Virus record (IMG/VR): IMGVR_UViG_3300028590_000030
Location: 1-47,284 of that record
Length of the DNA stretch: 47,284 nt
Reading direction: 5' to 3' (one strand)
Source of the DNA: a virus
Within the stretch, counting starts at the first letter, position 1; every line of letters begins with the position of its first letter. A program made the position numbers and the translations under genes. Positions 198 to 47,284 of this stretch are shown here, piece by piece. The notes beneath the pieces are model-generated. The model did no database searches, was not told the DNA's origin, and saw nothing but the letters and a program-made list of their open reading frames with translations.

Positions 198-219
198 CCT
201 AAAGGTACTCAGTGGGTCT

Positions 220-309: not shown

Positions 310-337
310 TCCCCTCTATAGTGCGGGAATTAATTAA
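310..337 (-). promoter_or_regulatory. T7-class phage RNA polymerase promoter at the genome end (phiOR-like)
   Basis: The minus strand reads TTAATTAATTCCCGCACTATAGAGGGG, with the CACTATAG core shared by T7-family promoters and +1 at the G at 316 followed by purines. The 14-base block AATTCCCGCACTAT recurs exactly just after the RNA polymerase gene (37778-37765), which supports a specific phage promoter. Its place past the terminase and terminal genes resembles T7 phiOR, a promoter tied to replication initiation at the right genome end; that role is inferred from position. Confidence 0.7.
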
Positions 338-403
338 GGCAACTGATGGGTCAAATAAGGCAGAGAGCCGCCCCAAAGGGCAGCCCTCAAGTTTTACAAA
401 CCG

Positions 404-649
404 CTAAAGCCCGCAGTAGCCCAGCGGAACTTCGGCAGCCAGATGGTGGACTTTCCGCTGCTCACGCTCCTCCGGCGAATGGTTTTGCTTCCACTTCCAC
501 GCCATGCACTCAGAGGCGATGCACAAAGCCTTGGGCACACGGTCCCGCCACGGCCCCGTAACGTCGGCCGCACGGTTACAGCCGGGATTGTTCCCCAGCC
601 GGGCGTGAGGGCACCATTTAGTCCTGGCCTCCTGTTCCGTGACGATCAC
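404..649 (-). CDS. Small Cys-containing terminal protein, unknown function
   Basis: This 81-residue product is the last full gene in the direction of transcription. It starts with GTG, overlapping the TGA of the preceding gene (GTGA). Four cysteines occur in the first half (about residues 13, 24, 43 and 48, in contexts KWCPHARLG, PGCNR, ALCIASECMAWKW), a spacing that could bind zinc, though there is no family I can name. The C-terminal part is basic and carries no obvious domain. By position it is comparable to the T7 gene 19.5 region after large terminase, but I see no similarity. The downstream side is non-coding and carries the phage promoter at 310-337. Confidence 0.6.
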   Translation of the reverse strand: MIVTEQEARTKWCPHARLGNNPGCNRAADVTGPWRDRVPKALCIASECMAWKWKQNHSPEEREQRKVHHLAAEVPLGYCGL

Positions 650-945
650 GCGAAGTCATCCGTGGGGTTAGCTTCCTCGTACCGCTCGCAGTTGCGCTCG
701 TAGTTCCGGTCGGAGACGGCTTCCTGCTCCTTGGAGAGCGAGTAGCCAATCCAGTAGAGAGCGCCCACGGCCAGCACGAGGCCAGCCGCTATGCGCAGCG
801 GAATGGGCGTAATGTCGATGGCGAAGCAGAGCGTGACGAAGCAGCCGAGAGCCCCAGCCGCTGTGCCTACCCCGATGCAGGCCAGCTTCCAGAACTCCCA
901 GAGGAAGCTCAGGGCAGCCTTGTGGTGCTTGTTGTCGGTGCTCAT
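646..945 (-). CDS. Small membrane protein with two predicted TM segments
   Basis: This 99-residue protein has hydrophobic stretches at about residues 20-43 (LACIGVGTAAGALGCFVTLC) and 49-68 (PLRIAAGLVLAVGALYWIGY), followed by a charged cytoplasmic-type tail rich in Glu, Arg and Asn. The ATG overlaps the stop of the upstream gene, and its own stop overlaps the GTG of the next gene, so it is translationally coupled on both sides. It follows large terminase, where T7-like phages carry small poorly conserved genes. No family recognised. A membrane role is inferred from hydrophobicity only. Confidence 0.65.
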   Translation of the reverse strand: MSTDNKHHKAALSFLWEFWKLACIGVGTAAGALGCFVTLCFAIDITPIPLRIAAGLVLAVGALYWIGYSLSKEQEAVSDRNYERNCERYEEANPTDDFA

Positions 946-1130
946 GCCTGCTCCTTCTCGTTGATGTAGATGGGCAGCTCCATGTCTTCCTTGACGGCCT
1001 CCCTCGCTCGGCTGAGGCTATCAGTCTTGGCGAACTGGTGCCAGTAGCTGAGCCCGAGGAACGTCTCCTTGCGGAACACCCCGTACTTCCACCACCAGTC
1101 TCGACTTACGTCTATCTTGTACTCTCTCAT
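942..1130 (-). CDS. Small protein directly after large terminase, unknown function
   Basis: This 62-residue, Trp-rich product (residues 11-15 read DWWWK) has a basic N-terminus and an acidic C-terminus. Its ATG overlaps the TGA of the large terminase gene (ATGA at 1127-1130), so translation is coupled to terminase. No signal peptide, membrane segment or named domain is evident. It occupies the T7 gene 19.3/19.5 position but cannot be equated with those genes from sequence. Confidence 0.6.
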   Translation of the reverse strand: MREYKIDVSRDWWWKYGVFRKETFLGLSYWHQFAKTDSLSRAREAVKEDMELPIYINEKEQA

Positions 1131-3031: not shown

Positions 3032-3266
3032 CGGCAGCCCTCTTGAAGACTTCCATGATTGCCTCCTTGTCGGCCAGAAGGGCCTCAGGTTCCCAGTACA
3101 CGAGGTATGGGTGGCTCATCTCTTGCTGGACGCGGGCCTTGGAGACGGTCAGCAAGTTCCTCCATGCAAACTCCGCTCGGTGCGCAGCATCCACCCGCTC
3201 GGCATCCGCTAGGTCCCTGTGGAGGTTGCCGTGCACGTCCTTGTAGGCAATTACTTGTTCGGCCAT
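3024..3266 (-). CDS. Small charged protein upstream of large terminase
   Basis: This 80-residue, mostly helical-looking protein is rich in Ala, Glu and Arg, with no cysteines or membrane segments. ATG at 3266 has a strong AAGGAG 5 bases upstream. Its 3' end overlaps the GTG of large terminase by 8 bases, and its 5' end overlaps the previous gene by 16 bases. Position suggests co-expression with packaging genes, perhaps as an accessory to terminase, but no family is recognised. Confidence 0.65.
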   Translation of the reverse strand: MAEQVIAYKDVHGNLHRDLADAERVDAAHRAEFAWRNLLTVSKARVQQEMSHPYLVYWEPEALLADKEAIMEVFKRAAGG

Positions 3267-3466
3267 ACGGGCTCCTCAAGGACGACACATTCATTGGGCC
3301 AGATGCCCTGCGAAAGGCCAGTGCAGAATGCAACGCTTAGTGGCCCGAGATACGGAGCCTCAAGGCTCTTCACCCTCCCGACCTCTTGCCCAAGTAGGCC
3401 AGAAACCGCAACCAAGCTGCCCACCCTGATGCGCTTCCCTTGGATGTCGTAGAGGGGCTTACTCAT
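3251..3466 (-). CDS. Small protein with SH3-like/beta-rich N-terminus, unknown
   Basis: This 71-residue protein contains the pattern IQGKRIRVGSLVAVSG...QEVGRVKSLEAPYLG, typical of small beta-barrel (KOW/SH3-like) modules that bind nucleic acid or protein. This is a pattern impression, not a confirmed domain. I chose the ATG at 3466, which overlaps the end of the upstream gene, over the longer frame at 3511, because the extra residues are a shadow of that gene. The next upstream gene pair (3631-3897, 3459-3638) has a similar small-basic character. Confidence 0.6.
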   Translation of the reverse strand: MSKPLYDIQGKRIRVGSLVAVSGLLGQEVGRVKSLEAPYLGPLSVAFCTGLSQGIWPNECVVLEEPVWPNK

Positions 3467-3638
3467 CGCCGGGGACCTCCGCGTACACAGGGACAACCAC
3501 AAGCACGCCACTCTGGAAGCTGGAGGGGTGGCCCTCGCACTGTCCCTCGGTGGTCCATACCTTGCGCCGCCGCGTGCCTACGTGAGGCTCATTCGCCTTG
3601 GTGTTCCACGTCATGTAGCCGATGGGGACCCTAGCCAT
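3459..3638 (-). CDS. Small protein, unknown function
   Basis: This 59-residue product starts MARVPIGYMTWNTKAN and ends VVVPVYAEVPGDE. It looks beta-rich. ATG at 3638 lies within the end of the preceding gene, with GGAG about 10 bases upstream. Its stop overlaps the ATG of the gene at 3466. No domain recognised. It is one of a run of five short, tightly overlapping genes between small and large terminase. Confidence 0.55.
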   Translation of the reverse strand: MARVPIGYMTWNTKANEPHVGTRRRKVWTTEGQCEGHPSSFQSGVLVVVPVYAEVPGDE

Positions 3639-3897
3639 TGCCCATAATCTCCGCCGTGTTGAGCCCGCCACGTTGCTCCTTGACCAGCTTGTCCACCACC
3701 ACTAGGTTGTAGAAACGGCACTTGCGGGGGAAGACGTACTTGTCCGCTCCACGGCAGTCATCCAGCACGGCCATCTGGGGCGTCATGCCTACCACCTTGG
3801 CAAGCGTGAAGTGGTGCGAGCGGCGATGCGTGAAGCTGGCCACTACGGTAGCCCCCACGGTAACCGGCTGGCCGAGCTTGTCGGTCTGGCTATTCAT
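3631..3897 (-). CDS. Small basic protein, possible beta-barrel, unknown
   Basis: This 88-residue product has an N-terminal stretch LGQPVTVGATVVASF followed by basic segments (HRRSHHFTLAKVVG and FPRKCRFYNLVVVDK), again resembling a small SH3/KOW-like fold. ATG at 3897 overlaps the upstream TGA (ATGA). Similarity in pattern to the protein at 3251-3466 (G-x-x-V-x-V-G-x-x-V-A-V followed by V-x-x) could reflect distant paralogy. Function unknown. Confidence 0.6.
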   Translation of the reverse strand: MNSQTDKLGQPVTVGATVVASFTHRRSHHFTLAKVVGMTPQMAVLDDCRGADKYVFPRKCRFYNLVVVDKLVKEQRGGLNTAEIMGNG

Positions 3898-4109
3898 GCT
3901 CCCCGCTCCCCGGGAACCGGCCACGGGGTCTGGAAGCAAACCACAGCGGCCCGCTCCTTGGGGACCTTGGCGACATGCATGCGCACTTGGAGGTCCTTGG
4001 CGGCGAGCACACAGGCTGCCTCGGTGTTGTACTGCCCTTGGTGGGCAATGAGGGTCTGGCCTTCAGGGCTGAGCCCGAGGACAAACAGAACGAATATCTT
4101 TGAAAGCAT
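3894..4109 (-). CDS. Small exported or membrane-anchored protein, unknown
   Basis: This 71-residue protein begins with a signal-like sequence (M-L-S-K then IFVLFVLGLSPEGQ), followed by a soluble part with two cysteines. I chose the ATG at 4109, which has AAGGAG 10 bases upstream, over the 93-residue frame starting at 4175, because that extension would be encoded by the terminator hairpin at 4141-4171. T7 carries its Rz homologue at about this place, but this protein lacks an Rz-like coiled coil; a spanin analogue already exists near 32638. Confidence 0.55.
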   Translation of the reverse strand: MLSKIFVLFVLGLSPEGQTLIAHQGQYNTEAACVLAAKDLQVRMHVAKVPKERAAVVCFQTPWPVPGERGA

Positions 4110-4140
4110 CTGCGCCACGCTCCTTGCTTGTAAAGTGACT

Positions 4141-4171
4141 AAAGGCCCCCAGCCGTTAAGCTGGGAGCTTT
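4141..4171 (-). terminator. Intrinsic terminator after small terminase
   Basis: On the minus strand GCTCCCAGC-TTAACG-GCTGGGGGC forms a 9-bp stem (one G-U pair) flanked by AAA and CTTTAGTC. The stem-loop lies between the small terminase stop (4197) and the next gene (4109). The plus-strand reading also ends in a short T run, so it could act in both directions. Confidence 0.6.
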
Positions 4172-4196
4172 GCAATAGCTTACGGTTCCAGCCTGT

Positions 4197-4481
4197 TTAA
4201 GGCTCCCACTCGGGCTTGCCAAACTCTGGCAGCTCAGCGGGTTCCTCTCGGCTGTCCTCGGTGGCTGGCGGGATGCCGAGCGTGAGGCCGTTGTCCTTGA
4301 GGAGGTTGCGGAGGATGGCCAACTCCTGATGGCTGGCCTTGCCGCTGCGGACCACGCCGACTAGCTGGACGAAGATGGCCTTCTGCCCAGCCCTCAGGAC
4401 CTCCTCAAGGGTCATGCCCTCAAGGTCGGAGAAGTCGAGGTCCTCCGGGTCTTCCCCGGAGTTGTGCCCGATGCCCGGCAT
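4197..4481 (-). CDS. Small terminase subunit (T7 gp18 / DNA maturase A-like)
   Basis: This 94-residue protein (T7 gp18 is 89) has an acidic N-terminus (SGEDPEDLDFSDLEG), a helical middle ending in LAILRNLLKDNGLTLG, which resembles the gp18 family, and an acidic C-terminus. The small terminase recognises concatemeric DNA and recruits the large subunit. ATG at 4481 is taken because upstream residues of the longer frame are shadow sequence of the neighbouring gene. Unlike T7, where small terminase is followed closely by Rz and large terminase, a terminator and five small genes intervene here. Confidence 0.8.
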   Translation of the reverse strand: MPGIGHNSGEDPEDLDFSDLEGMTLEEVLRAGQKAIFVQLVGVVRSGKASHQELAILRNLLKDNGLTLGIPPATEDSREEPAELPEFGKPEWEP

Positions 4482-4488
4482 CAGGTGG

Positions 4489-4881
4489 TTACCACGGCTG
4501 CTGGTTGGACAGGTCGGTGCCGTCCCAGATGAGGAGGTTGCCAGCGAGAGCGCCACCGCCGTTGAATGCCGACGCCGGAACGATCTGGAGGCGATCACCA
4601 ATGTTGACTGCCCGGGTCGTGGTGCCCTGCGTGGCGCTGTCCGAAACAACGGCACCCTTGGCCGCTGCGTCTGCCACGGTAGCTGTGAGCCCGGTGACTG
4701 CCGTGGTGCCGATGTTGACGGTAACGTCGCCGCCTGTCACGATGGCCGTCTGGACGATGACCTGAAGGCCGGTCACAAAGCCATTCACCGGGCTCACGAT
4801 TTCGGTGGAGGTGCCTGCTGCCAGCTCGGTGGCCGGGATGACGAACGGAAGGGCGACGGTGCGGCCTGCGTTGAGAGACAT
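4489..4881 (-). CDS. Probable small virion structural protein (beta-rich, decoration- or fibre-like)
   Basis: This 130-residue, low-charge protein rich in Val, Thr, Ala and Gly has repeated beta-strand-like segments (VTGLQVIVQTAIVTGG, DVTVNIGTTAVTGLTA) and ends in DGTDLSNQQPW. Such composition is typical of phage head decoration or fibre-tip proteins, and the place between tail fibre and terminase supports a virion role. ATG at 4881 has AAGGAACT 8-10 bases upstream. No named family assigned. The protein at 34459-34746 has a similar composition and may be another structural protein. Confidence 0.6.
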   Translation of the reverse strand: MSLNAGRTVALPFVIPATELAAGTSTEIVSPVNGFVTGLQVIVQTAIVTGGDVTVNIGTTAVTGLTATVADAAAKGAVVSDSATQGTTTRAVNIGDRLQIVPASAFNGGGALAGNLLIWDGTDLSNQQPW

Positions 4882-4901
4882 ATTGATAGTTCCTTTCGAG
4901 G

Positions 4902-5216
4902 TTACTTGAGATAATTCAGCACGGTCATGCCGATGCCGAAGATGGTGAGAAGGATGGGGGTAGCCCACTGGGCCATCCCCGCCCCTCCCGATGCACGCGC
5001 TTGGGTCAGCTCAAGGGCGCGGATGCGGATTTCGTGGTCCGTGTGTTCCTCGCCTATGCGCTTAACCTCTGCGGTCAGGAAGTCAACCTTGCCGTCAATC
5101 CTCTGGACACCCAAGTTGATGCCCTGAAGCTCGGCGTAGGTGACGATGATGTTGGTCTTGCGGCCCTCGGGCTGATCGTCTTGTGTGCTCAGTGGATGGT
5201 CCTTGTGCTGTTGCAT
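4902..5216 (-). CDS. Holin-like protein: coiled coil plus C-terminal TM helix (XhlA-like)
   Basis: This 104-residue protein has a charged N-terminus, a helical region with heptad-like spacing (VQRIDGKVDFLTAEVKRIGE, then DHEIRIRALELT) and one C-terminal TM helix (WATPILLTIFGIGMTVLNYL). This architecture matches XhlA-type haemolysin/holin accessory proteins, and T7 places its holin gp17.5 right after the tail fibre gene, as here. The TGA of the fibre gene overlaps this ATG. A second holin-like gene lies next to the endolysin at 33473, so which one opens the membrane is open. Confidence 0.6.
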   Translation of the reverse strand: MQQHKDHPLSTQDDQPEGRKTNIIVTYAELQGINLGVQRIDGKVDFLTAEVKRIGEEHTDHEIRIRALELTQARASGGAGMAQWATPILLTIFGIGMTVLNYLK

Positions 5217-7954
5217 CAGGCCGCGCTTGCGACGACTTGAAGACCCATTGTTTCCGGCTGCCCGCTGCGGTTCTCCACATAGGCCCTGCCGCCAGTGACC
5301 GACACGGTAACGTTACCATCTGTGCCTGTCGTCCCCGTGAGGACACTGGTGCTCCCCACGAAGTTGGCGTTTCCGTACATCTTCTCCGTGGCCGCACTCT
5401 GGCAAGCAACCGCTCCATTCATCGCAGCCCGGAAGCCCGACACCGTGATGATAGCGTGGTTTGAGGGGATGGGGAAGGACACAGCGGTATCGTCGGGCAA
5501 GTAGATGCTGGCCGTACCCACGTTGTTCCGCCAGAGCATAGCGCTCGACACCGTTGAGGGTGTGGACGGCAGCTCCCCATCACCCCTGATGATGTTGTCG
5601 TTGCAGGTCCACCGGAGGCACGTTGACGCAATGGCCGCTGAGATGATACCCACGCCGAGGTCATCGAACGTGTTGGCACCCACACCGCAATCGTTGGCGT
5701 TCTGGAGCCGCATGCCCCTCCCGCTCATGGGCCCACGGATGGTATTGTTTTCCACCTTGATGCCGTGTGCCCCATCGATGTCAATACCGGTGTTGCTTGC
5801 TTGGATGACGTTGCCCCGCAGAACGAGACCAGTGTTGGCAGTTGCGGTGTTGGTCCCGCTCCGCACGCGCCAGATGCCGTACGCAACGTTACGGATTGAG
5901 TTGCCCTCGATGAGGCATTCAAACTTCTCGAAGTTGCGGTTCCTGAAGCCGCCCGTGCCTCCCGCCCCACTATCGTGGAGCGTGATGCCCTTCTCGAAGC
6001 CGTCGATGAAGTTGTTGGACACGATGCAGTCCCGTGCCCAGCCCTCCCGCAGCGAAATGCCGTAACTGTCGGCAACACCAGCCAGCCCGGCTGTGACCAG
6101 ATTGCCCGTCACTATGGAGGCCCGGCTACGGATGGCCACGCCAGAGCGTGCCGACTGTAAGAAACGGCATCCGGTGATCTGTGCGCCGTAGCCCCCCGGG
6201 TGCGTGGTGGCTGGGGTCCACTTGTTCCAAAGCGTCCAGCAATCCTGAAGGAAGCAGTTGACATGCGGGATGCCGTTGCTCTCGAACGTGATGTCGAAGC
6301 CCTGCGATCCAAGCACGCTGCCGCACCTCTTAAACCCGCAGTTCTGGCTACCGGCCACGAGGAAGTCATTGTAGTTGAAGAAGTTGCTGGAGTAATCGGT
6401 GGAGGCATCATGGGTGGAGACACACCACTCCGCGTAGCTGTCGAAGGACGAGCGCCAAAGGCACGCATATCCGGCCATGGTGCCCATCTCGAAGTTAACC
6501 CGGCTGACCCGGCACCCTACCGCCCCGGTCCCACGAACAATCGCCCCGATGTTGGGGCCGTTCATCAGCGTCATGTCCTCAATGGTTGCATCGCGGCATG
6601 GCGTGAGCTTGGATATCGTGGAAGATGCCCGTGCCGTGGGTGAGGTATCGCTGGAGTTGTTCTCCCGGTAGCTCGGGAAGATCAGGGGAGAGGCCGAGAC
6701 AAACGTAGTGGTGCTGCCCACGGACTGGGTGGCCAGAAACTCCGCGAAGTACACAGACTGGTTATCGCCGCCTAGTTGCCACAGGGGGCCAGCATCCTCT
6801 GAGTTTGCGTCACGCTGCGACTTGAAGAGGGCAATGTCGTTAACAGTCAGACCGTGAGCCGTTGCCGTTGTGATGGCCGTATCGCCACGCCCGTAGTTGT
6901 TGACGGTGCTTATCTCCGCCCCGAAGGTGCCCGTGAACGATATCCATTCGGAGGCTGACGTGGTGCCCGGGTTGTTGATAGTGACCCCTCGTCCCGCTCC
7001 AATCCACTTGACCTTGGGCTTCATTTGGATCGGCCCATGGCGGAAACGCCCAGCGCCTTGGACCAACGTGCCGCCGAACAGCTTTGCTTGGAGGGTATCT
7101 ATCCCTGCTTGGATAGCCGCCGCGTTGTCGGTGCCGTCCGTGAGGGTCGTGTTGTCGGCCACTGTGCCAAACGCTTCGGCCGGGAGCCGGTTGCCCACAA
7201 TCTCGTACCAAACGGTAGACCCACCTGCCAGAGCTACCGCCAGCTTTCCAGCATGAGCTGGCTCGGTGTCCCTGAGGGCGTACAGGGCTCCGCCGCCATC
7301 ACCTGCCGCTGCGTATCCCGCCACCCGGATTTTGTTGGGAGCCGTGGCTGGGTGGAAGCTTGCGCCCGCGTAGGCCCTGCTGTCCAGCTCCACGAGTGTG
7401 TTGGACGCCGCCGCCACCGCCGTGTCCCGCGCATCCTCAGCCGCCTGCCCTGCCGCCACTGCTTCATCGCGTGCCTGCTCGGCATCTTCAAGGTAGCCTT
7501 GCAGGTCGCTGGCACTTGGCCCCGGCACCACATTCCCATCGCCGTCGAAAGCAAGGAGGCTGCCATCGGGCCCGGGCTGGATGGTCCCGCCAGCTCCAAA
7601 GTTTGTGGTTACCCACGCCCGCGCTGATAGGTCGAACGCAACGTCGTAACCCTCCTGTGCGAGGTAGAGAGCCTGCCTATCGGCCGTATTGAGGTCAGCC
7701 GCCTCAAGGTTGCCCGGCTGGAAGTCCACTAAGGGGTCGGCCGGAGTGCGCCGCCGCCTCTCCACGACGGCCCCTGCCGTGGGGTTGCCGGTGAGTATCT
7801 GCACACTGCCGTCTGTCGGCCACGAGATGTTGATGGGGTCTACCACCACGCCGTCCACCGACACAATGACGTGCGCCTTGTCGAGGTAGGGCATGGGCAC
7901 GGGGAACGTGTCTGTGCTCCCCGATGCCGTAGACCGTACGTAGCTAAGTGCCAC
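5216..7954 (-). CDS. Tailspike: T7 fibre-type anchor plus pectate-lyase-like beta-helix
   Basis: Residues about 1-130 resemble the T7 gp17 tail-attachment domain (ALSYVRSTASGSTDTFPVPM, then YLDKAHVIVSVDGV). An Ala/Glu-rich helical linker follows (about 150-190, EDAEQARDEAVAAG). From about 255 the sequence AEAFGTVADNTTLTDGTDNAAAIQ is typical of pectate-lyase-superfamily beta-helix tailspikes, and right-handed beta-helix turns with repeated N-x-I/V patterns continue to about 800. Such proteins bind and often depolymerise surface polysaccharide. The C-terminal 100 residues are likely a trimerisation or receptor tip. 912 aa. GTG start with AAAGGA 7-8 bases upstream. Catalytic residues cannot be assigned by eye. 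Confidence 0.9.
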   Translation of the reverse strand: MALSYVRSTASGSTDTFPVPMPYLDKAHVIVSVDGVVVDPINISWPTDGSVQILTGNPTAGAVVERRRRTPADPLVDFQPGNLEAADLNTADRQALYLAQEGYDVAFDLSARAWVTTNFGAGGTIQPGPDGSLLAFDGDGNVVPGPSASDLQGYLEDAEQARDEAVAAGQAAEDARDTAVAAASNTLVELDSRAYAGASFHPATAPNKIRVAGYAAAGDGGGALYALRDTEPAHAGKLAVALAGGSTVWYEIVGNRLPAEAFGTVADNTTLTDGTDNAAAIQAGIDTLQAKLFGGTLVQGAGRFRHGPIQMKPKVKWIGAGRGVTINNPGTTSASEWISFTGTFGAEISTVNNYGRGDTAITTATAHGLTVNDIALFKSQRDANSEDAGPLWQLGGDNQSVYFAEFLATQSVGSTTTFVSASPLIFPSYRENNSSDTSPTARASSTISKLTPCRDATIEDMTLMNGPNIGAIVRGTGAVGCRVSRVNFEMGTMAGYACLWRSSFDSYAEWCVSTHDASTDYSSNFFNYNDFLVAGSQNCGFKRCGSVLGSQGFDITFESNGIPHVNCFLQDCWTLWNKWTPATTHPGGYGAQITGCRFLQSARSGVAIRSRASIVTGNLVTAGLAGVADSYGISLREGWARDCIVSNNFIDGFEKGITLHDSGAGGTGGFRNRNFEKFECLIEGNSIRNVAYGIWRVRSGTNTATANTGLVLRGNVIQASNTGIDIDGAHGIKVENNTIRGPMSGRGMRLQNANDCGVGANTFDDLGVGIISAAIASTCLRWTCNDNIIRGDGELPSTPSTVSSAMLWRNNVGTASIYLPDDTAVSFPIPSNHAIITVSGFRAAMNGAVACQSAATEKMYGNANFVGSTSVLTGTTGTDGNVTVSVTGGRAYVENRSGQPETMGLQVVASAA

Positions 7955-7965
7955 TCGGTTATCCT

Positions 7966-10900
7966 TTAGTTGCCAACGCCAAAGGCGCTGGTAAGATTGT
8001 CGATTGCAGACCGGGGACCCCGGGGCTCCTCGCCGCTGGCCCTTGCCTTGTAGGCATCGCGCACCCTCACGGTTTCCTTCATGAGGGCCTCACGCACCAC
8101 AGGGTCTGCCTTGATGCGGTTGGAGGCAGCCTTTCGGTACTTCGAGGTGATGGAGTGGAGGAGCCACAGCTTAGTGCCTCGGGTATCCGCAGCCCCATCG
8201 GGAGCATTAAGGTAGCGCTCCGTCTGGATGAACTTGACCACCCTGTCCTTCAGGCTCATTGCCCGAGGCGTGGGCTTGCCGCTCAGCCGCTGGTACTCCT
8301 CATAGGCGTTCTTGCCGTTGGACATTGTGATGTCCCTGAGGTCTACGCCGTTAAGGTTTGGGCTCACCCTTACCGGGACACCACCATCGCCAGCCATTGC
8401 AAGGCGCTGCACCTCGCCATCCAGCAAGGCATCCTCCGAGCTTGACCACAGGCCATTGCGTACCCGGATAGGCTCACCGAAGGCATCGTACCGTGCTGGC
8501 ACCGTCTCACTGAGGCCGGGCACCGTGGCCATAACCTTGTCGGCCATGCTGCGGGCTTCCCTGAGGTAGTCATCGGGGTTGAGCTGGCGCATAGCTGCGG
8601 AGTACGGTATGAAGCTGGACAACATGTTGCCGCCCACCGAGCCCACCCGTGTCTCCGGGTCCATCAGGAACTCCATCGTCTGGGTAGCTCCCAGTAGGTA
8701 GGACTTGGAGGTGAACTGCTTGGCAAGTGCGATGCCCAAACCTCCGATGGCAGCTTGAAGCTCTGGAGGCTCCTCGGCATCCTCAAGGCTGTTCTTGAAG
8801 TCCATCAGGTCTGCCACGATGCCCATGGGAACGGCGATGGGGTCGAACCGGCCAAAGGTGACATAGTTCTTGGTCCCGTCGTCATTCTCCCATACAACAC
8901 TGTAGGGCTTCCACCCTGTAGCCATAAGCTCCTGCTTGGCCTTCGGGTCCTTAGGCCCGCCCCCAGTGATCATCCCGTTGGCTGCCATGTAAGCGATGGA
9001 CCCCATGAACAAGGACCCCATGGACATCTGCCCGATGGCCTGAGCCTTCTGCTCAGCCGTACCACGGAACAACAGGTCCCGATACTCGCCTTGCGCAAGG
9101 TTTAGGCCCGGGGTCATCTTCCAGCCATACCGGATGACGTTCGTGGGGGTCTTGACAAAGGGCAGCACCAGACGGAGCGCCTTGATGTTGCTCGTGCCGT
9201 TCTGGACCCACTTGCCCACTGTGTTGGGGAGGAGGTCCTGCTGGAAGGTGGCAATTTGCGCCTCATGCAGCGCCGTGGGGTCTGTCCCCCTGAGGCTGCT
9301 ATCGAAGCCCTCCTCCACCCGCCTGTTGACATGGGCCTTCACGAAGTCCTTGGCGGCTTTGCCAGTAAGCCCGGCATCGGCAGCCATCCCCACGGCCTCC
9401 ACGTGTGCGTTGGCCATGAGCTTGGACCTGTAGGTCATCTGCTTGACCAGCTCATCCACAGTCCCGAGCAACCGCGTGGGAAGCCCGATGGGAACCGTAG
9501 CCACGCTTAGCGCGTTATACGTGAGGTTGGACACGTTGTCCCACGGCTTGAAGAACTGAGCGTTAAGCGGCTGGGTGCCGGGAAGGCCGATCCCTGCTGC
9601 TGCCTGCGCCCCCTCATAAAGCTCTGTGCGGTGCGGTGCCAAGATGCTGTCGTTGCGCATGAACGCCTTGCCTGCCGCGAAGAAGCCATCCACAAAGGAG
9701 TTGCCCATGTAGGCGTACTGTGCGGCTGCTTGACGAAGGACCCTGCGGCTCTCGGGGTTGCCTGCAAGAGCCCCCGGGGTAGACCCCAAGATGCGCTCAA
9801 GGGGGCGAGCCCCAAGCATGTAGGCGTTGGTGGAGACGTTGATGAGCTGGGTGATGGGGCCAGAGACCATGCTGTTGACCCGGAGGTATAGCGCATAGTC
9901 CCCGATCTTGCTCCAGATATCCGGGTTGGCCAGCTTCTTGAATTTGGCGGGGTTGCCCTCGGTGGCGTCCAGCAGATCGAACGCCTTGTCCATGTCCATG
10001 TCTTTGAGCTTGGAGTAGTCATTGAAGAACGCCATGCGCCGCATACCGCGTGCATAGTTGGACTTCAAACTGTCCGCATGGGCAAACAGGGAGGCAGCCA
10101 TCGACATACGCTTGGCCAGTTCTTGGCGCATGGCCTCAGGGGTCCCGTATTTCGAGAAGTCCCCGGCCTTGTACTGCTGGCGTAGCCTCCACGTATCCCG
10201 AAGGACCCGCTCGGACAGAATGAAGCCAGCCTCCATGCGAGCCGTGAGGTCAGCCCCCATCTTGCCCGCCTGTTGGATGGCACCGAGCACAGCCGCAGGG
10301 TCTTCCCCAAAGAGCCGCGCGTAGTCCCCGAGACGCTTGTTGGCTGCCTCATCGGTCAGCACCTTGCCGCCCTTGATGGTGGAGCGCTTCTCGTCAATGG
10401 CATCCACAACGCGGGCCATGAGGTCGTCCATGTCGGCGTCGGTGTTGAGGCGGCGGTAGTTGATGCCCTCCCCTGTGCCGAACTGGTGGCCTGCCTCCAT
10501 GGCCTTATACCATGAGCCGTACGTTTCGATTGCCGCCTTGTCCGCTTCGGCTTGCTCAAGGATTTCGTCCGTGCGTTCGGCGTCTAGCTGGACCCGGGGT
10601 CGTCCACGAGGAGGCAGCTCGGTGTCAAGCCCTGAAGCTGCGGAGGTGGGATTGGAGACGACTTCAACCGGGACGGCCTCTTCTGCCACTGCGGATGGAG
10701 ACCCCTCTGGCAAAGCCTGAGCATCTCCTTCTGGTACGGCCAAAGCCTCATCCCCAGCAGCTTCTCCACGAACACCACTGGGTCCGCTTCCGGTGTCCCC
10801 AAGGACTTGCTCATCCGCCTCCACCGCTTTCTGCTGGCTTGCCTCCAGCTCATCCACAGCCCTTGAGGCTGCCTCTGTGTCGCCACTGCGGAGCGCCTTG

Positions 10901-37787: not shown

Positions 37788-40517
37788 TCATGCGAAAAAA
37801 TATTCGGAGTGCATAACGTCCTGCAAATCCAGCGTTCCCATCTCCAGCGGTTTAGCCTTTTCGGCAATCATCTCCTCCGCCTTCACGCTGGCATCAAGCA
37901 CATCCAGCTCCGGGTTCTGGTCCAAGAGCACCGGCACGATGACCCCAACAGCAGCAGCTTTGAACATCCCCAGTACGTCGGTCTCGTGGGTCTCCACAAA
38001 GGCTCGGCGCAACAGGTTGGCCAGAAGGTCCATGTTCGCGGCATGCGTACCGTAAGCATCATGCACCGAAGCGAACGCCACGATGCCTACCTCAGTGCAC
38101 ATGTTGAGGCAGTCCACGAGGCAGCTTGCGTCCAGTGAGTGGATGAAATTCGGGGAGATGCCCTGTAGCTGCTCCCGTATGCTCAGCTCGGCGGTCCTTT
38201 CCTTAAGCTGGATGGTGGTGCGGGTGCCGTCCAACAGGCAGTCCACACGGTAGTCCCGCTCAAGGCCGTAGAAGTGGCGAACCACGAAGCCAGACGGTAC
38301 GGTCCAGTAGATGGGCTGGTCATTGAGTGCTGCCACGCGGGCAACATCCTGCAACCACTTCATCACCTTCATGCCCCCGCTCACCACGTCGTTGACCACC
38401 TGCCACATCTTGAGGGCCAAGAAGGTTACCCTACGGTTCCTCACCTCCTTCTGCTCTGGGGTCAGCCCCCGGTCAGACTGGGTGTTCTCGTCCAGCCATG
38501 CCCGGGTGTAGCCGAAGAAGCTGTCCTTGGTGCCCCCGTAAGGCAGCACCATGACTTGGCGTTTGGTCAGGCTTCTGGGCAGGTCATGGTTGCACAGCTC
38601 CAGCCACCACCTAGCATCCTCGTCGTGGGGTAGGTCCTCTAGGATAGCCTGAAGCCGCCTTGCGACGAACTTGTAGATGTCCTGAGGCTCATCGGAAGGC
38701 ACGAGGTTGACGTAGGCTCCTGCCACCTCGTCCCGGGTGATGGCGGAGAGGTGCTGGATACCATTGCAGGTGCCGTCCACCATGACCGGGAGGCTAGACA
38801 TGAAGCCCTCCCCGAAGTGCAGATAGTCCACCCACTCGAAGGTGGCGGCTAGTGCCTGCAATGGTTTGTCCGCATTGACCCACTCGTTGTTGGCATAGGG
38901 GTCCATGGCGATGTTGCGGAGCATCTCCTCGTTATCCTCCACCCACTTGATGCGGGCCTCATAGGATACCTTGTCGTTGCCCCACACGCTGGCCAGATGG
39001 ATAGCCAGCCAGCGGATGCCCCCGTTGTCGTGCGTGATGGGTGCCGAGGTGGCGAACTCAAGGAGACCCCGGGAGAGGTCGTTGCCCTGAGGCTGGAGGT
39101 AGTTCGGGATGGGGTACATGCGGCCCCTGAAGTCGAGCATGTGGGGGAAGTAGAAGGCGTCGTACTTGGAGAACTGGTTGGCGATGTTGACGGTGGCGCT
39201 GGCTGCCCGGCATCTGCCTACCTGTGTGACGTTGAAGCGCCAGATGGGTGCCGCCTTGGCCTTCCACTCGTCAATCTCCTTCTGGGTCTGCTCGTCGGCT
39301 GGTGGAGGTGGGGTCTTTGGGTTGTCCCTCTTCCACTGCCGCTGGCGTTCCTTATCCTCCTCCATGCGGGGTGTCCTCGGGGGGAACTCCCGTTCGTCCA
39401 TCTCCGGCAAGGTCTGACTACCCGGCTTGCCTATAGCCCACCTGCGGACGGTCCACACCTCGTTGACCACATCAAGGACCCTCTGGTTGATCCTCCATGC
39501 CGTCTCTTGCAGGGTGTTGAGCGCGGCATAGACCTTAGGGAAGTCCAGTGCCTCGTACTCATCGGCTGCCCTCTCCTTCTGGTGCTCTTGGTGGGCCTTG
39601 AAGCGGATGAGCCTCGGGGCACGCACGTAGGGTGTCCAGTAGCCGCCATCACGGGTCCCGTTCCACCGCTTTGGTGGCACTACGGTCGGCTTGAACTCAG
39701 GCTGGTTGGCCTCCGCTACGTCCAGCGCCTTTGCCAGCCACTCCATGAGGCCGGGCTTAGGGGCGATGACCAGCATGGGGCTCTTGGGCTTGCCTGCCTT
39801 GAAGACATGGTGAGGGTCGGAGATGACCTCAAACCATTGGGTCTTACGCACGATGCAGTCCATGAGGCACCAGCCTACGCGGAACTTCTGATCGTTGGTC
39901 CATGGGGTCCATGTGAGCTTGTCGCCCAGCTCCCCGGTCTCGATGAAGTTGTTGAACCTGTTGATGTTGACCCGCCGCTTGTGCTCAGCGGTTGACCCCA
40001 TGTCCTCCTGCTCCTTCTGGATGGCCCGGAACATCTTCTTGTTGGTCTTCTCCCAGAGCCGGACCCGCTGCTCGTACTCCACGGTCTGCCCGATGGTTGC
40101 CGCTGTGGCCTGCACCGAGATGTACCCCTTGGCCATCTGGTCCAGCATCGTGCGGAGCGCAATGGCACCGGCAACGTAGGGGTCCAAACTCTCCACCAGC
40201 GGGAGGACAGCAGGCTTTACCCCACGGCTGCGGCGCATGGTGGCGCACCAGTCCTTGATGGTGTCCGCTACGCCCGGCAACCAGTCCTTCAGCAGGCCCT
40301 TCACGGGGGATACCCGCGTCATCTGTCCTTTACGCTCGGCCTCAATGACCCTATCGCGGACCTTATCGGCCCCCGCACGCATCATGCCGTACTCAAGCTC
40401 TACCTGCTCCTCCCACAGTGGATGGCTGGTGATGGTGGAGGCTTGCACTTCTGCCGATATTGCGGCGCTCATATTGTTTAGCAGCATGGCCCTGTTTCCC
40501 AAGATGATTGGTCCCAT
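37788..40517 (-). CDS. DNA-directed RNA polymerase, single subunit (T7 gp1-like)
   Basis: This 909-residue protein (T7 is 883) carries the catalytic features of the family: HMLDFRGRMYPIPNYLQPQG, VDGTCNGIQHLSAITRDEVAG (Asp about 579, T7 D537), KRQVMVLPYGG (Lys about 653 and Tyr, T7 K631/Y639), GISPNFIHSLDA and SVHDAYGTHA (Asp about 820, T7 D812). It ends SEYFFA, like the T7 FAFA foot. The specificity loop (DQPIYWTVPSGFVVRHFY) differs from T7, consistent with its own promoter set. ATG at 40517 sits one base after a terminator T-tract; ATG at 40487 or 40472 are alternatives. Expressed from host promoters, then drives later genes. Confidence 0.96.
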   Translation of the reverse strand: MGPIILGNRAMLLNNMSAAISAEVQASTITSHPLWEEQVELEYGMMRAGADKVRDRVIEAERKGQMTRVSPVKGLLKDWLPGVADTIKDWCATMRRSRGVKPAVLPLVESLDPYVAGAIALRTMLDQMAKGYISVQATAATIGQTVEYEQRVRLWEKTNKKMFRAIQKEQEDMGSTAEHKRRVNINRFNNFIETGELGDKLTWTPWTNDQKFRVGWCLMDCIVRKTQWFEVISDPHHVFKAGKPKSPMLVIAPKPGLMEWLAKALDVAEANQPEFKPTVVPPKRWNGTRDGGYWTPYVRAPRLIRFKAHQEHQKERAADEYEALDFPKVYAALNTLQETAWRINQRVLDVVNEVWTVRRWAIGKPGSQTLPEMDEREFPPRTPRMEEDKERQRQWKRDNPKTPPPPADEQTQKEIDEWKAKAAPIWRFNVTQVGRCRAASATVNIANQFSKYDAFYFPHMLDFRGRMYPIPNYLQPQGNDLSRGLLEFATSAPITHDNGGIRWLAIHLASVWGNDKVSYEARIKWVEDNEEMLRNIAMDPYANNEWVNADKPLQALAATFEWVDYLHFGEGFMSSLPVMVDGTCNGIQHLSAITRDEVAGAYVNLVPSDEPQDIYKFVARRLQAILEDLPHDEDARWWLELCNHDLPRSLTKRQVMVLPYGGTKDSFFGYTRAWLDENTQSDRGLTPEQKEVRNRRVTFLALKMWQVVNDVVSGGMKVMKWLQDVARVAALNDQPIYWTVPSGFVVRHFYGLERDYRVDCLLDGTRTTIQLKERTAELSIREQLQGISPNFIHSLDASCLVDCLNMCTEVGIVAFASVHDAYGTHAANMDLLANLLRRAFVETHETDVLGMFKAAAVGVIVPVLLDQNPELDVLDASVKAEEMIAEKAKPLEMGTLDLQDVMHSEYFFA

Positions 40518-40518: not shown

Positions 40519-40546
40519 AAAAAGCCCCCACCTTTCGGCAGGGGCT
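40519..40546 (-). terminator. Intrinsic terminator abutting the RNA polymerase start
   Basis: AGCCCCTGCC-GAAA-GGTGGGGGCT followed by TTTT on the minus strand is a strong terminator (10-bp stem with two G-U pairs, GNRA-type loop). The run of T ends one base before the ATG at 40517. Either the early transcript is largely stopped here or the hairpin controls translation of the polymerase. Confidence 0.75.
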
Positions 40547-41751: not shown

Positions 41752-42017
41752 CAGGGTAGCCTCCTCAAGCCGTCCTTGAGCCTAAGTGCCCGGCCTACCT
41801 TTACGTGCCAGCGGCGCATTGCCAACGTAAGGCTGGTAGAGCTGGCCCGGTTGATGTGAGCCCAGTAGGACACCGCAGTGAAGGCGGTGACGGTGGCCAG
41901 CGCTTGGCGCATTGCCATTAGGTGATCCTCGTAGCGGACCCACTCCCCCTCTGGGTTTGGTTCTGCATCAGCGTCGTAGCCGTATTGGCCGTATATCTCG
42001 TACCGGATGATGCTCAT
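41751..42017 (-). CDS. Small protein (88 aa), first member of duplicated pair
   Basis: MSIIRYEIYGQYGYDADAEP begins an acidic/Tyr-rich region; then EDHLMAMRQALATVTAFTAV and a basic C-terminus (RRWHVKVGRALRLKDGLRRLP) shared with the gene at 41381-41539. ATG overlaps the integrase stop (ATGA), with AGGAGG 8 bases upstream. Co-translated with the integrase, so it may act with it as an accessory factor, though no excisionase motif is evident. Confidence 0.6.
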   Translation of the reverse strand: MSIIRYEIYGQYGYDADAEPNPEGEWVRYEDHLMAMRQALATVTAFTAVSYWAHINRASSTSLTLAMRRWHVKVGRALRLKDGLRRLP

Positions 42018-42949
42018 TTCAAGTACCTCCTCATCTCCTCGGTGCCATAGCCGCCAGTCAGCTCAAGGTAAGCCAGCGTGGTGGACATGGCGCGATGCCG
42101 CAAGTACCTCTGGACCATGGCAAGCGGCATGCCCTGCTCGACGTGTAGGTGATACGCTGCGGTGCGCCTCAGGGCCTTAAGCGTGGCCGTGGGGTCATCC
42201 CTCCAGCCGAAACGCTCACGGACGGCCTCCCAGCCTACCCTAAGCTCCTCGTAGGTGCTTTCGATGAACTTGAAGCCAGTCTGTCCGGCCTCCGCGTCTA
42301 GGCACTGGCTTGAGGCCAGCATGCGGGCGTAGGACCCCAAGGGCAGCGTAGCTTGGCTCCCAGCGGTCTTGGTGCCCGGCACGTTGACGTCCTTGTAGCC
42401 CTTCGAGAAGCTGTCCCGGGTGAGGCGCAGGGTCTCCTCAAGGCGCAGCCCTGTAACCATCGTCCAGCGGACATAGCGGGCTAGATCGTAGGGGACAACC
42501 GTGCGGTCGGCCTCCTCCTCAATCCAGTAGCACACCTCCTCCTTCATCTCCATGGGCAGGTGCCACTTGAGTTGCTTGGGGACTGGCTTGCGGCACCCCT
42601 CGACGTTGACCCCGAGCTTGCTGAGGCAGTTGAGGCGCTTCTGGATGGTGGCAGGGGACAGGCCCCCAGCGTACCATGCAGCGGTGGCCTGCTGCACGTC
42701 ACGGTCCCCAATGTCTTCGCACGGGGTGGCCACTCTGAGCTGCCGCATGCTGGTGTCATCAAGCTCAGGCCCGTGGATGGCCTTGAGGACGGACGTGATG
42801 GCCTTGACGGCTTGGCTTCGGAGGGTCTGCCCCGAGCGCATGTGCCGCCACTGCTCGCTGATACGGCTCAAGGCTTGGTCCAGTGTCTCGGGAGCTTTAA
42901 GGAACTTGCTGGGGTCCGTGGGTATCCCTGTGTTTGGGCTCATGGGCAT
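42014..42949 (-). CDS. int: Tyrosine recombinase / integrase
   Basis: This 311-residue protein has a core-binding N-terminal domain (about 25-125, helical) and a catalytic domain with R169 (TMVTGLRLEETLRLT), K194 (PGTKTAGSQATLPL), R261 (LKALRRTAAYHLH), H285 (RYLRHRAMSTTLAY) and nucleophile Y294. The position of the usual His in H-x-x-R is Lys258 (K-A-L-R). Site-specific recombination between phage and host DNA is the known role of the family. Start at 42949 (GGAGAGACC leader, ATGCCCATG) rather than 43006. Presence in a T7-like genome is rare and suggests a temperate capacity. No attP was located. Confidence 0.88.
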   Translation of the reverse strand: MPMSPNTGIPTDPSKFLKAPETLDQALSRISEQWRHMRSGQTLRSQAVKAITSVLKAIHGPELDDTSMRQLRVATPCEDIGDRDVQQATAAWYAGGLSPATIQKRLNCLSKLGVNVEGCRKPVPKQLKWHLPMEMKEEVCYWIEEEADRTVVPYDLARYVRWTMVTGLRLEETLRLTRDSFSKGYKDVNVPGTKTAGSQATLPLGSYARMLASSQCLDAEAGQTGFKFIESTYEELRVGWEAVRERFGWRDDPTATLKALRRTAAYHLHVEQGMPLAMVQRYLRHRAMSTTLAYLELTGGYGTEEMRRYLK

Positions 42950-42977
42950 CGTGGTCTCTCCTTTCGATAGCCTCAAT

Positions 42978-42996
42978 GCGAAGCACGCTGCTCCGC
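42978..42996 (-). promoter_or_regulatory. Hairpin just upstream of the integrase ribosome binding site
   Basis: GCGGAGCA-GCG-TGCTTCGC (8-bp stem, one G-U, tight loop) lies about 16 bases before the GGAGAGACC leader of the integrase and 9 bases downstream (in transcription) of the terminator at 43032-43005. A control of integrase expression is possible. Confidence 0.35.
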
Positions 42997-43004
42997 CTAA
43001 CGCC

Positions 43005-43032
43005 AAAAGGGGGCAGCCTGTTGGCCACCCCC
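43005..43032 (-). terminator. Intrinsic terminator between the acidic early gene and integrase
   Basis: Minus strand GGGGGTGGCC-AACA-GGCTGCCCCC forms a 10-bp stem with two G-U pairs, followed by TTTTGG. It separates the gene ending at 43063 from integrase. It would reduce readthrough into the integrase gene unless antiterminated or transcribed by the phage polymerase. Confidence 0.75.
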
Positions 43033-44219: not shown

Positions 44220-44672
44220 TTACTTCTCTGCGGGGCTAGCCGCGATGATCTGGAGGACAAGCGCAAGGTACTTATCGGCCCATGCGGCTGCCTCACTGTC
44301 CATGCTTGCTATCCATTTCCTGCCCGCCTCGCTGTCCCATCGGGCCCACTTGTCGATGGCGTGGCGCTGGCAGCCAATCTGGAGGGTGTCGTGGGTGTAG
44401 CCGATGGCCCACTTGTCGAATTGGAGGGACTTTAGTTGCCGCCTGTTGCCAAAGGCTCTAAGGTCCGCGCCTTCAAGGTTCGCGCCGTAAAGGTTCGCGC
44501 CTCCAAGGTTCGCGCCTTCAAGGTTCGCGCCGTAAAGGTCCGCGCCTTCAAGGTTCGCGCCGTAAAGGTTCGCGCCTCTAAGGTTCGCGCCTCTAAGGCT
44601 CGCGCCGTAAAGGTCCGCGCCTTCAAGGTTCGCAAACGGCTTAACCTTTTCCTTAATCTCTGTCGGGGTCAT
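44220..44672 (-). CDS. Pentapeptide-repeat protein, early region
   Basis: This 150-residue protein consists of a short leader ([20 protein letters not shown]), 11-12 pentapeptide repeats of the type A-(N/D)-L-x-(G) over residues 14-70, and a helical C-terminal domain ([20 protein letters not shown], then [20 protein letters not shown]). Right-handed pentapeptide solenoids such as Qnr/MfpA mimic DNA and bind gyrase or other DNA enzymes. A phage early version could shield or inhibit a host nuclease or topoisomerase. The coding DNA is a 15-base tandem array. ATG with AGAAGGAG upstream. Confidence 0.85.
44456..44635 (-). repeat. 15-base tandem repeats encoding the pentapeptide solenoid
   Basis: About twelve copies of the unit AAGGTTCGCGCC plus three variable bases on the plus strand. 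This array can recombine, giving variable repeat number between isolates. Several units are identical, implying recent unit duplication. Confidence 0.8.
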
Positions 44673-44703
44673 GATGGTAGTCTCCTTCTAGTGGTTGCCA
44701 ATG

Positions 44704-44738
44704 GGCAAGCGCAATGGCCTGCCCTGAGGTAACGACTA
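44704..44738 (-). repeat. Intergenic element, copy E3, anchored at a stop codon
   Basis: 35 bases identical to 44985-45019. On the minus strand it starts at the TAG stop of the gene at 44736, reads TAGTCGTTACCTCAGG and onward, and can fold GGGCAGG-CCATTGCG-CTTGCC(C). It is followed by an AACCACTAG leader and AAGGAG. Confidence 0.75.
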
Positions 44739-44936
44739 GTTGTCCGGCATAGCGTCTATCAACAGGTACAGCAGCGGGATGCCCAAGAGCAAGACCCCGA
44801 TGATGCAGGCTGCCATGTTGCGAACGTCGCGCCACCATTGAGCGTGTAGTTGCTTCGAGGCTTCCTCACGGGCTGCCTTGCGCATTGCCGGGGTGTCGTG
44901 CTGGCGGTAGTCGTCTAGGTAGCGTAGTTCGGCCAC
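44736..44936 (-). CDS. Small membrane protein (66 aa)
   Basis: VAELRYLDDYRQHDTPAMRK, an amphipathic basic/acidic region and a C-terminal TM helix (MAACIIGVLLLGIPLLYLLI) ending DAMPDN. GTG start at 44936 with AAGGAGG about 9 bases upstream. It lies between two copies of the 35-base intergenic element, as a repeat-flanked cassette. Confidence 0.65.
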   Translation of the reverse strand: MAELRYLDDYRQHDTPAMRKAAREEASKQLHAQWWRDVRNMAACIIGVLLLGIPLLYLLIDAMPDN

Positions 44937-44984
44937 TGTGTATTCCCTCCTTCTAGTGGTTATGTCGGCTAGTGGTTGCTGCAA

Positions 44985-45019
44985 GGCAAGCGCAATGGCC
45001 TGCCCTGAGGTAACGACTA
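44985..45019 (-). repeat. Intergenic element, copy E4, anchored at a stop codon
   Basis: Identical over 35 bases to 44704-44738 and again beginning with the TAG stop of the upstream gene (45017-45019). AGTGGTTGC also recurs beside both copies. The copies flank the gene at 44736-44936. Confidence 0.75.
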
Positions 45020-45208
45020 ATCGGCGCTATTGAATGCCTCAGAGAGCCATCTGTTAAAGGTCAGCTCATGGGCCATCTGTAAGCGCATGTCGGCCGGGAT
45101 CACGTTGCGTAATACCGTCCGGGTGACCCCTGATGGCTTGTAGGTGATGTCCGCATAGCCATCCCCCGAGGCTGTGACCTTCCAGAGCTTGCTTTCAATG
45201 TTCATCAT
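45017..45208 (-). CDS. Small early protein (63 aa), unknown
   Basis: MMNIESKLWKVTASGDGYAD to YKPSGVTRTVLRNVIPADMR, mixed beta and helix; no TM. ATG at 45208 has GGGGAGG 7 bases upstream and overlaps the TGA of the preceding gene. Unknown function. Confidence 0.6.
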   Translation of the reverse strand: MMNIESKLWKVTASGDGYADITYKPSGVTRTVLRNVIPADMRLQMAHELTFNRWLSEAFNSAD

Positions 45209-45537: not shown

Positions 45538-45611
45538 GTTGTCGTTCTCCTTGATGTCGGCCACGGCGGGATTGCCATTGTGTTAGCCGTCTAGTCTAGC
45601 GTGGTTAGTGT

Positions 45612-45662
45612 GGCGCTAGGGATGCCTCAGGGGATGGCCTGAGGTCACCGCAACGTCACTTG
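45612..45662 (-). repeat. Intergenic hairpin element, copy E1, anchored at a stop codon
   Basis: Contains CCTCAGG-GGATGG-CCTGAGG (7-bp stem, 45625-45644). Flanks match E2 at 46141-46190. On the minus strand the element begins with AAGTGAC, that is, the last Lys and the stop codon of the gene at 45656-45832. Confidence 0.75.
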
Positions 45663-45832
45663 TCGTCATCTTCCTTAAGAGCTGACAAAGCGTCCACCAC
45701 GTCGTTAATGCTATCTGCATTCATCACGTAGGCAAGCACCTCGTTATCTAAAAGGCCACTATCTGTGGCCATGCGGAAGGCTGCCAACAGTTCATCAAGA
45801 GCTTCGCGCTTATCCGGGGTCAGCGTGGTCAT
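45656..45832 (-). CDS. Small acidic early protein (58 aa)
   Basis: MTTLTPDKREALDELLAAFR then MATDSGLLDNEVLAYVMNAD and a C-terminal acidic tail (ALKEDDDK). Helical and acidic. ATG is 3 bases after the stop of the upstream gene (TACTGAGCTATG), without a separate SD, so coupled translation is likely. The stop codon is inside element E1. Function unknown. Confidence 0.55.
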   Translation of the reverse strand: MTTLTPDKREALDELLAAFRMATDSGLLDNEVLAYVMNADSINDVVDALSALKEDDDK

Positions 45833-45835
45833 AGC

Positions 45836-46117
45836 TCAGTAACCCTGCCATTCGCGGATAGGCGCAAGGTCTACCACGTTGCCAACAACAGGGAACACGT
45901 AAGGCACCTCCTCCCATATGTCATCCATGTTGACAGCCTCGAAGTCCGCAAAGGTGCGCCGGGTGTCTGCCTGCCAGTCCTTCACCAAGATACCATCGGG
46001 CGTCATGATGGGGCTATGGCCGTGGCGCTCAAGGAACATGAGGGCTTGCGCGACGGTGACCGGGTGGCGCATGGGCGGAAGGATGGTAGGCGTGGTGGTG
46101 AGCATTGCGGCTTGCAT
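45836..46117 (-). CDS. Small early protein (93 aa), unknown
   Basis: The product has MQAAMLTTTPTILPPMRHPV, a helical part with EAVNMDDIWEEVPYVFPVVG, and ends PIREWQGY. ATG at 46117 with GGAGAGACCACC. Hydrophobic and acidic; no signal sequence. Unknown; one of the first proteins made. Confidence 0.6.
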   Translation of the reverse strand: MQAAMLTTTPTILPPMRHPVTVAQALMFLERHGHSPIMTPDGILVKDWQADTRRTFADFEAVNMDDIWEEVPYVFPVVGNVVDLAPIREWQGY

Positions 46118-46140
46118 GGTGGTCTCTCCTAGTTGGTGGT

Positions 46141-46190
46141 GGCGTTAAGGATGCCTCATGGTGGTCATGAGGTCACCTTAAAGTCACTTG
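46141..46190 (-). repeat. Intergenic hairpin element, copy E2, anchored at a stop codon
   Basis: Contains CCTCATG-GTGGT-CATGAGG (7-bp stem, 46154-46172). Compared with E1 the sixth stem pair changes from G-C to T-A on both sides (a compensatory change). It begins at the AAGTGAC of the gene ending at 46184. Confidence 0.75.
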
Positions 46191-46459
46191 CGCCTGTACG
46201 GTTCCGTAAGGAAGTGACCTAGCGGCCACGTTGGGTTTGTCGAGTAGCATGCACCAAGGCGTGGCGAATGGGGATTGCCTTCCTCGCCGGGGAATAGAGT
46301 GTTAGCGTACCACTCCGCATCGCTGGCATACTGCGGGGCATAGTGCGTACCGTTTGGCATAGGCTTTGCGGCCCATGCTGGCACGTGCTCCATGGTGAAG
46401 CGGTGGACGTACTCGCGCTTGGCTTGCTCTATGGTAGGGCGCTTGGTCTTGGTGGTCAT
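46184..46459 (-). CDS. Small early protein (91 aa), unknown
   Basis: MTTKTKRPTIEQAKREYVHR, basic; then FTMEHVPAWAAKPMPNGTHY and a Tyr/Pro-rich middle; ends LTEPYRRK. ATG at 46459 with GGAGAGACACCACC upstream. Unrecognised. Early position suggests a host-takeover role. Confidence 0.65.
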   Translation of the reverse strand: MTTKTKRPTIEQAKREYVHRFTMEHVPAWAAKPMPNGTHYAPQYASDAEWYANTLFPGEEGNPHSPRLGACYSTNPTWPLGHFLTEPYRRK

Positions 46460-46765: not shown

Positions 46766-46829
46766 GGGTCTATCCCTCAAAGTGACCTAGTGGTTTCGCC
46801 CTATAGCCTAGGGCATCATCAGGGGACCG

Positions 46830-46859
46830 GCATTAGGTCCCGACCTATTCGATTGTCAA
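46830..46859 (-). promoter_or_regulatory. Sigma70-like early promoter
   Basis: TTGACA (46859-46854), 18-base spacer, TAATGC (46835-46830). Perfect -35 box, weak -10. Lies 65 bases upstream of the first early ATG (46765). Confidence 0.5.
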
Positions 46860-47090: not shown

Positions 47091-47107
47091 TAGTGCTTAA
47101 AGTGACC
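47091..47107. repeat. Inverted copy of the left-end repeat (181-197)
   Basis: Plus strand TAGTGCTTAAAGTGACC is the reverse complement of GGTCACTTTAAGCACTA at 181-197. Flanks also partially agree. Confidence 0.5.
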
Positions 47108-47196
47108 AAGTAGCTAGGCCATTGAGGTGATCACTAGAGGGATGGTGAGGAGCATAGCGGGCTAGGTAGGGGCCATATGCTCGGCTAGATGGGCAC

Positions 47197-47218
47197 AATG
47201 TCCCTACCTGAGGACATT
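47197..47218. repeat. Perfect 7-bp hairpin near the right end
   Basis: AATGTCC-CTACCTGA-GGACATT. No T-tract follows on either strand, so it is not a standard terminator. Lies about 70 bases from the window end. Confidence 0.4.
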
Positions 47219-47284
47219 TCCCGCCAAGGATATCAGCATGTTAGGCACTAAGGAGGGCGGCAAGGCACTCGACAAGGCCGGTAG

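Follow-up and report, generated by a model that had tools for sequence, protein, structure and literature searches.

In the early operon of phage T7, the R sites (R0.3-R1.3) lie between genes on the coding strand, some right after a stop codon, and cuts at these sites split the early transcript into gene-sized mRNAs. One of them, R1.1, is a bulged hairpin cleaved by RNase III (PMC8708148). The E. coli enzyme is able to cut a stem of 12 bp (PMC8708148), and RNase III of S. meliloti also cleaves T7 R1.1, although it prefers longer double-stranded RNA (PMC6121014). Two other kinds of repeated phage element deserve comparison. Hammerhead ribozymes that flank genes in rhizobial prophages are active in vitro, and those of A. 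tumefaciens cleave in E. coli as well (PMC3088659). In cluster K mycobacteriophages, the ESAS are 17-bp inverted repeats adjoining SAS (GGGATAGGAGCCC), and they are without RNA covariation (PMC3203893). For rhizobial T7-like phages, literature searches returned nothing relevant on RNase III hairpins between genes.

Here we describe two hairpins, E1 and E2, that follow stop codons in the early region of a temperate T7-like phage. Like the T7 R sites, they are intergenic, on the coding strand of an early operon, and they have a similar size, a bulged design and a common base with a variable tip.

Results

The window analysed is an entire IMG/VR record of 47,284 bases, whose called genes lie on the minus strand. 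Genes for a T7-type RNA polymerase, a family-A DNA polymerase, a head-tail connector and a tyrosine integrase identify it as a temperate T7-like phage (Table 1). Its closest relatives are prophages in G071 and in G001, an Aminobacter genome (RNA polymerase identity about 54%), together with the IMG/VR contigs L058, L061, L063, L064 and L164; among integrated relatives in named hosts, the Aminobacter prophage is the nearest, and named phages reach at best only about 33% identity. In the prophages a non-coding leader and then the early genes come after the terminase, which means that the early genes of the window (43-47 kb) are read away from its right end. Between terminase and early genes we also noted a conserved TGATATC with an ATGTCCT..AGGACAT hairpin 13-16 nt further on, with copies in the window (47197-47235, minus strand, imperfect), L048 (17789-17825, plus) and L045 (about 12125-12080, minus); L058 (about 13070) and L064 (about 11275) have hairpins like it. 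This element is a candidate packaging, end or origin signal.

Table 1. Position of the hairpins and of the genes around them in the window.
Feature	Position	Strand	Remarks
E1 hairpin	45610..45659	-	starts in the TGA stop of gene 45656-45832
E2 hairpin	46139..46187	-	starts in the TGA stop of gene 46184-46459
58-aa early gene ending at E1	45656..45832	-	ORF
93-aa early gene	45836..46117	-	Shine-Dalgarno CTAGGAGAG 3' of E2; homologues in relatives
91-aa early gene ending at E2	46184..46459	-	L064 homologue, 43% identical
F1 hairpin	44688..44738	-	starts at the TAG stop of gene 44736-44936; repeat D4; post-stop z -4.8, 2nd of 56
F2 hairpin	44969..45019	-	starts at the TAG stop of gene 45017-45208; repeat D4; post-stop z -3.0, 5th of 56
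T7-type RNA polymerase gene	37788-40517	-	
Tyrosine integrase gene	42014-43006	-	

The strand that matters for both elements is the minus strand, on which E1 reads CAAGTGACGTTGCGGTGACCTCAGGCCATCCCCTGAGGCATCCCTAGCGCCAC and E2 reads CAAGTGACTTTAAGGTGACCTCATGACCACCATGAGGCATCCTTAACGCCAC. The initial annotation held that they begin in the last codons of different genes, and this is what we find: both start at CAAGTGAC, which comprises the final sense codon and the TGA stop (45656-45658 for E1, 46184-46186 for E2), and they occupy the coding strand between that stop and the Shine-Dalgarno of the next gene. Several other early junctions are without such a hairpin. The 58-aa protein encoded upstream of E1 has no PHROG or Pfam match. 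The two copies share about 81% identity across 54 columns, which bears out their shared flanks, except that E1 reads GGCGCTAGGGATG where an ending in ..AAGGATG had been given.

Both proposed stems were located, CCTCAGG-n6-CCTGAGG at 45625-45644 in E1 and CCTCATG-n5-CATGAGG at 46154-46172 in E2. The estimated size of about 50 bases was also correct, but the 7-bp stem turned out to be only the tip of a larger hairpin. Each element extends from its stop codon to the CAC that follows GCATCC and forms 19 bp, interrupted by small bulges, within about 50 nt, laid out as GUG.CGUUG.GGUG.CCUCAGG(CCAUCC)CCUGAGGCA.CC.UAGCG.CAC in E1 and GUG.C.UUAAGGUG.CCUCAUG(ACCAC)CAUGAGGCA.CCUUAA.G.CAC in E2, with at most 7-8 bp uninterrupted. 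The folding energies were -20.4 kcal/mol for E1 (45612-45662, z=-3.1) and -21.1 kcal/mol for E2 (46138-46190, z=-5.6), and the antisense strand folds no worse than the coding strand. Perfect minus-strand stems of at least 7 bp with loops of 3-10 nt number only 13 in the whole 47 kb, E1 and E2 included. When the region around and after each stop codon was compared with dinucleotide shuffles for the 56 gene ends in the window, E2 ranked first (z=-6.1) and E1 third (z=-4.4).

Stable hairpins after stop codons could be transcription terminators or attenuators, and a new terminator class had indeed been proposed as an alternative to an RNase III site. We regard this as highly improbable. There is no T-run on either strand and no U-tract follows either element, which makes termination unlikely, and neither is among the terminator-like sites of the window, which do include a T-tailed hairpin (40523-40546, minus) immediately ahead of the RNA polymerase gene. 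Termination at E1 and E2 would moreover cut off the later early genes. They are not terminators of the known intrinsic kind.

The stems had been reported to carry a compensatory change, and this was confirmed as a G-C to U-A replacement altered on both sides. In total, 5 of the 21 pairs differ between E1 and E2: besides this two-sided change, two pairs show a wobble change on one side only, and a further pair is gained and another lost. Of the 21 pairs, 19 are retained in E2, where random substitution would leave 14.5 on average (p=0.0036). Taken by itself, this comparison of two copies is only suggestive of selection on pairing, and therefore a covariance model built from E1 and E2 only (R1) was searched over related phages. 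In 414 kb of their sequence it matched L063 (13855-13925, E=1.5e-5) and L058 (13693-13740, E=0.0015), both in early regions; the next-best match had E=0.27, and there was no further convincing match in these 414 kb or in another 557 kb. The L063 copy is intergenic, and no ORF of at least 20 codons ends at it. Copies were not detectable in the prophage relatives G071 and G001. A match of a second model, R2, in RHEph01 (1729-1788, E=0.0064) was disregarded, as it falls within a coding gene. In IMG/VR the exact shared-flank pattern gave no match, and a looser hairpin pattern gave six, about the number estimated by chance, with none in the nearest prophages. Megablast of the E1/E2 region found no match in named phages. 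Sensitive blastn returned mostly pentapeptide repeats, plus a leader match to RHEph01; the window has an early gene for a pentapeptide-repeat protein (44220-44672, minus) that is built of near-identical 15-nt DNA repeats.

The wider covariation check suggested at the outset was run on a MAFFT alignment of E1, E2 and the L058 and L063 copies, and the covariation was strong. Two-sided changes occurred at 10 of the 21 pairs (12 such cells), and 91.7% of cells were paired, as compared to 32-42% in slid-partner controls; none of 500 shuffles did as well. The apical stems CCUCAGG, CCUCAUG, UUGCGGG and UUCAAGC, each with its complement, vary freely, whereas the bulged motif GGUGAC/GCAUCC (GGUGA-C..G-CAUCC) is invariant in all four sequences. 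The outer stem changes too, from GUG/CAC to UUA/UAA in L058. Because of this covariation, we conclude that base pairing is selected and that E1 and E2 are, very probably, a selected RNA structure. The strand is less certain from the pairs themselves, as 5 G-U against 4 A-C wobble cells barely favour the coding strand; it is on the coding strand that the copies lie between stop codon and Shine-Dalgarno.

The covariation also bears on two readings at the DNA level. The first takes the repeats as portable recombination modules, blocks of homology from stop codon to ribosome-binding site that shuffle early genes and in which the hairpin is incidental. Repeats that include the stop codon, end near the next start and belong to a different family in different phages are what it predicts, but modules alone leave the compensatory changes in four sequences unexplained, since these show selection on the pairing itself, and we find it very unlikely. 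The second sees DNA sites such as operators, because GTGAC is repeated 11 bp apart and resembles the AAAGTGACC leader sites; CAAGTGACnTTnnGGTGACC is present in both copies, and AAAGTGACC at 46779 and 47099 (plus) and 181 (minus). In L058, however, the outer GTGAC is lost (UUAGC) while the pairing is kept, which leaves this reading with hardly any probability. The AAAGTGACC sites (about 181-200, 46776-46800 and 47096-47115) are in opposite orientations, one near each leader end, and occur also in G071 and G001.

The ESAS of cluster K resemble E1 and E2 in being repeated inverted repeats before gene starts with a consensus that differs per subgroup. Departures in the ESAS arms do not support RNA pairing (PMC3203893), whereas the arms of E1 and E2 covary; as the sequence differs as well, we rejected this assignment.

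At least five further repeated families, with 2-5 copies each, are placed likewise: the window has one more (F, Table 1), and relatives have the others. L058, L061 and L161 have two copies each and L064 has five; L164 has two close copies and two more divergent ones, the latter read by eye. The modules form 15-25 bp in 51-63 nt, and those in relatives mostly begin at the stop codon. In the predicted fold of F1 and F2 the stop codon pairs with a CUA near the next Shine-Dalgarno, and the L058 pair looks related to this family. MAFFT alignments of F with L058, and of L164 with L063, put the loops out of register and were left out of the pair counts. The five intergenic modules of L064 (11868-14030, plus) mostly carry different apical stems on a common base, ACCUCRUG../CAYC.GGGAGG. 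Each has a second hairpin with the Shine-Dalgarno GGGAG in its loop, with compensatory changes (CACGU-UGGGAG-ACGUG vs GUGU-UGGGAG-ACAC vs CAUGU-UGGGAG-ACAUG); both L064 patterns were read by eye.

An invariant bulge on a helix that is free to vary is typical of protein-bound hairpins, and a phage or host RNA-binding protein, such as a regulator or antitermination factor, could read the motif. Yet the F, L061 and L064 families have different bulges from E1 and E2 at the same position, and no known RNA-binding family was found among the ten early proteins scanned, so we consider such a protein improbable.

T7 early junctions folded in the same way gave hairpins of 13-19 bp in 48-58 nt segments, as compared to 19 bp in 51-nt segments for E1 and E2. 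The T7 hairpins at 0.4/0.5 and 0.7/1 lie directly 3' of the stop codon, and several T7 sites share a common base, CUCAAGG../CCUUUAUGAU, with differing tips. No sequence homology to the T7 sites was detected, as the R2 model had no match in T7 1-8000. E1 and E2 further differ from the R sites in that small bulges break the lower stem, in that several unrelated hairpin families exist across relatives and in that their cleavage is a prediction.

Hammerhead-like sequences are found in the same phage region. One, in the leader that precedes the first early gene of the window (46788-46849, minus), has a complete core (GUC, CUGAUGA and GAAA) and scores 29.4 bits against Rfam RF00008, short of the gathering score of 48.5. 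Others like it are present in RHEph01 (658-715), L094 (43.1 bits) and the prophages G012, G138 and G1081. A weak candidate type II hammerhead lies in the gp004/gp005 gap of RHEph01 (L010; 2078-2148, plus; 28.4 bits, E=0.1, below threshold). None was found in four IMG/VR relatives with hairpin modules. Since hammerhead-like sequences stand in the early leaders of the window and of several T7-like relatives, early transcripts in these phages are plausibly cut by RNA parts, which would fit a processing role for E1 and E2. The presumed task, splitting the early transcript, would then be common to the hairpins and the rhizobial hammerheads (PMC3088659). E1 and E2 are not themselves hammerhead ribozymes, as they have neither a CUGANGA/GAAA core nor an Rfam match.

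Discussion

E1 and E2 are a duplicated element with homologues in two related phages and strong covariation. Of the functions proposed initially, an RNase III site agrees best with the size, position and design of the element, and by analogy it would most likely function like a T7 R site. The chances that E1 and E2 are RNase III-type processing or stabilising sites in the early transcript seem to us about even. The two are paralogues of one structured RNA element within the polycistronic early transcript, and in both a variable apical stem sits on the invariant bulged motif and this on a lower stem. Host RNase III, which we infer to be the enzyme, would cut at or near the bulged motif and divide the transcript into gene-sized mRNAs. 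The stop codon of each mRNA would then be followed by a protective hairpin at the end, with a putative effect on mRNA stability, and the cut would free the ribosome-binding site of the next gene. The uninterrupted helix is short, so that cleavage by RNase III is no more than plausible: it covers 7-8 bp at most of the 19 bp in total, when the E. coli enzyme needs at least 12 bp and that of S. meliloti, which like the likely hosts belongs to the Hyphomicrobiales, prefers longer double-stranded RNA. Also weighing against this reading are the missing E copies in G071 and G001, the lack of a match between R2 and the T7 sites, and the small difference between the strands in wobble pairs and folding energy.

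The short helix would be explained if the hairpins are not cut by RNase III at all, which is the main rival to this reading. They may instead protect early-mRNA 3' ends from exonucleases after cuts elsewhere, or act as insulators between the stop codon on one side and the ribosome-binding site of the next gene on the other. Nearly every copy lies between a stop codon and a Shine-Dalgarno, and the second covarying hairpin of L064, with GGGAG in its loop, points to translation initiation. The invariant bulged motif is nevertheless more specific than a plain barrier requires, and the early junctions that have no such hairpin also speak against it, so that we judge uncut hairpins possible but somewhat unlikely. 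A related and more doubtful scenario is that covarying RNA modules from stop codon to ribosome-binding site separate the early genes, that each phage amplified its own version, and that their conserved internal bulge is read by some factor of the host or the phage, distinct from classical RNase III, with the modules acting together with the hammerhead in the leader.

If E1 and E2 are processing sites of the RNase III type, the T7 paradigm of early-mRNA processing would be extended to temperate T7-like phages of alphaproteobacteria. The RNA family is undescribed, as judged from Rfam, and its covariation supplies a precise, testable structure. Related phages seem to use diverse RNA parts to one end, both hammerhead ribozymes and unrelated hairpin families, and this lineage therefore offers a natural comparison of ways to cut one transcript.
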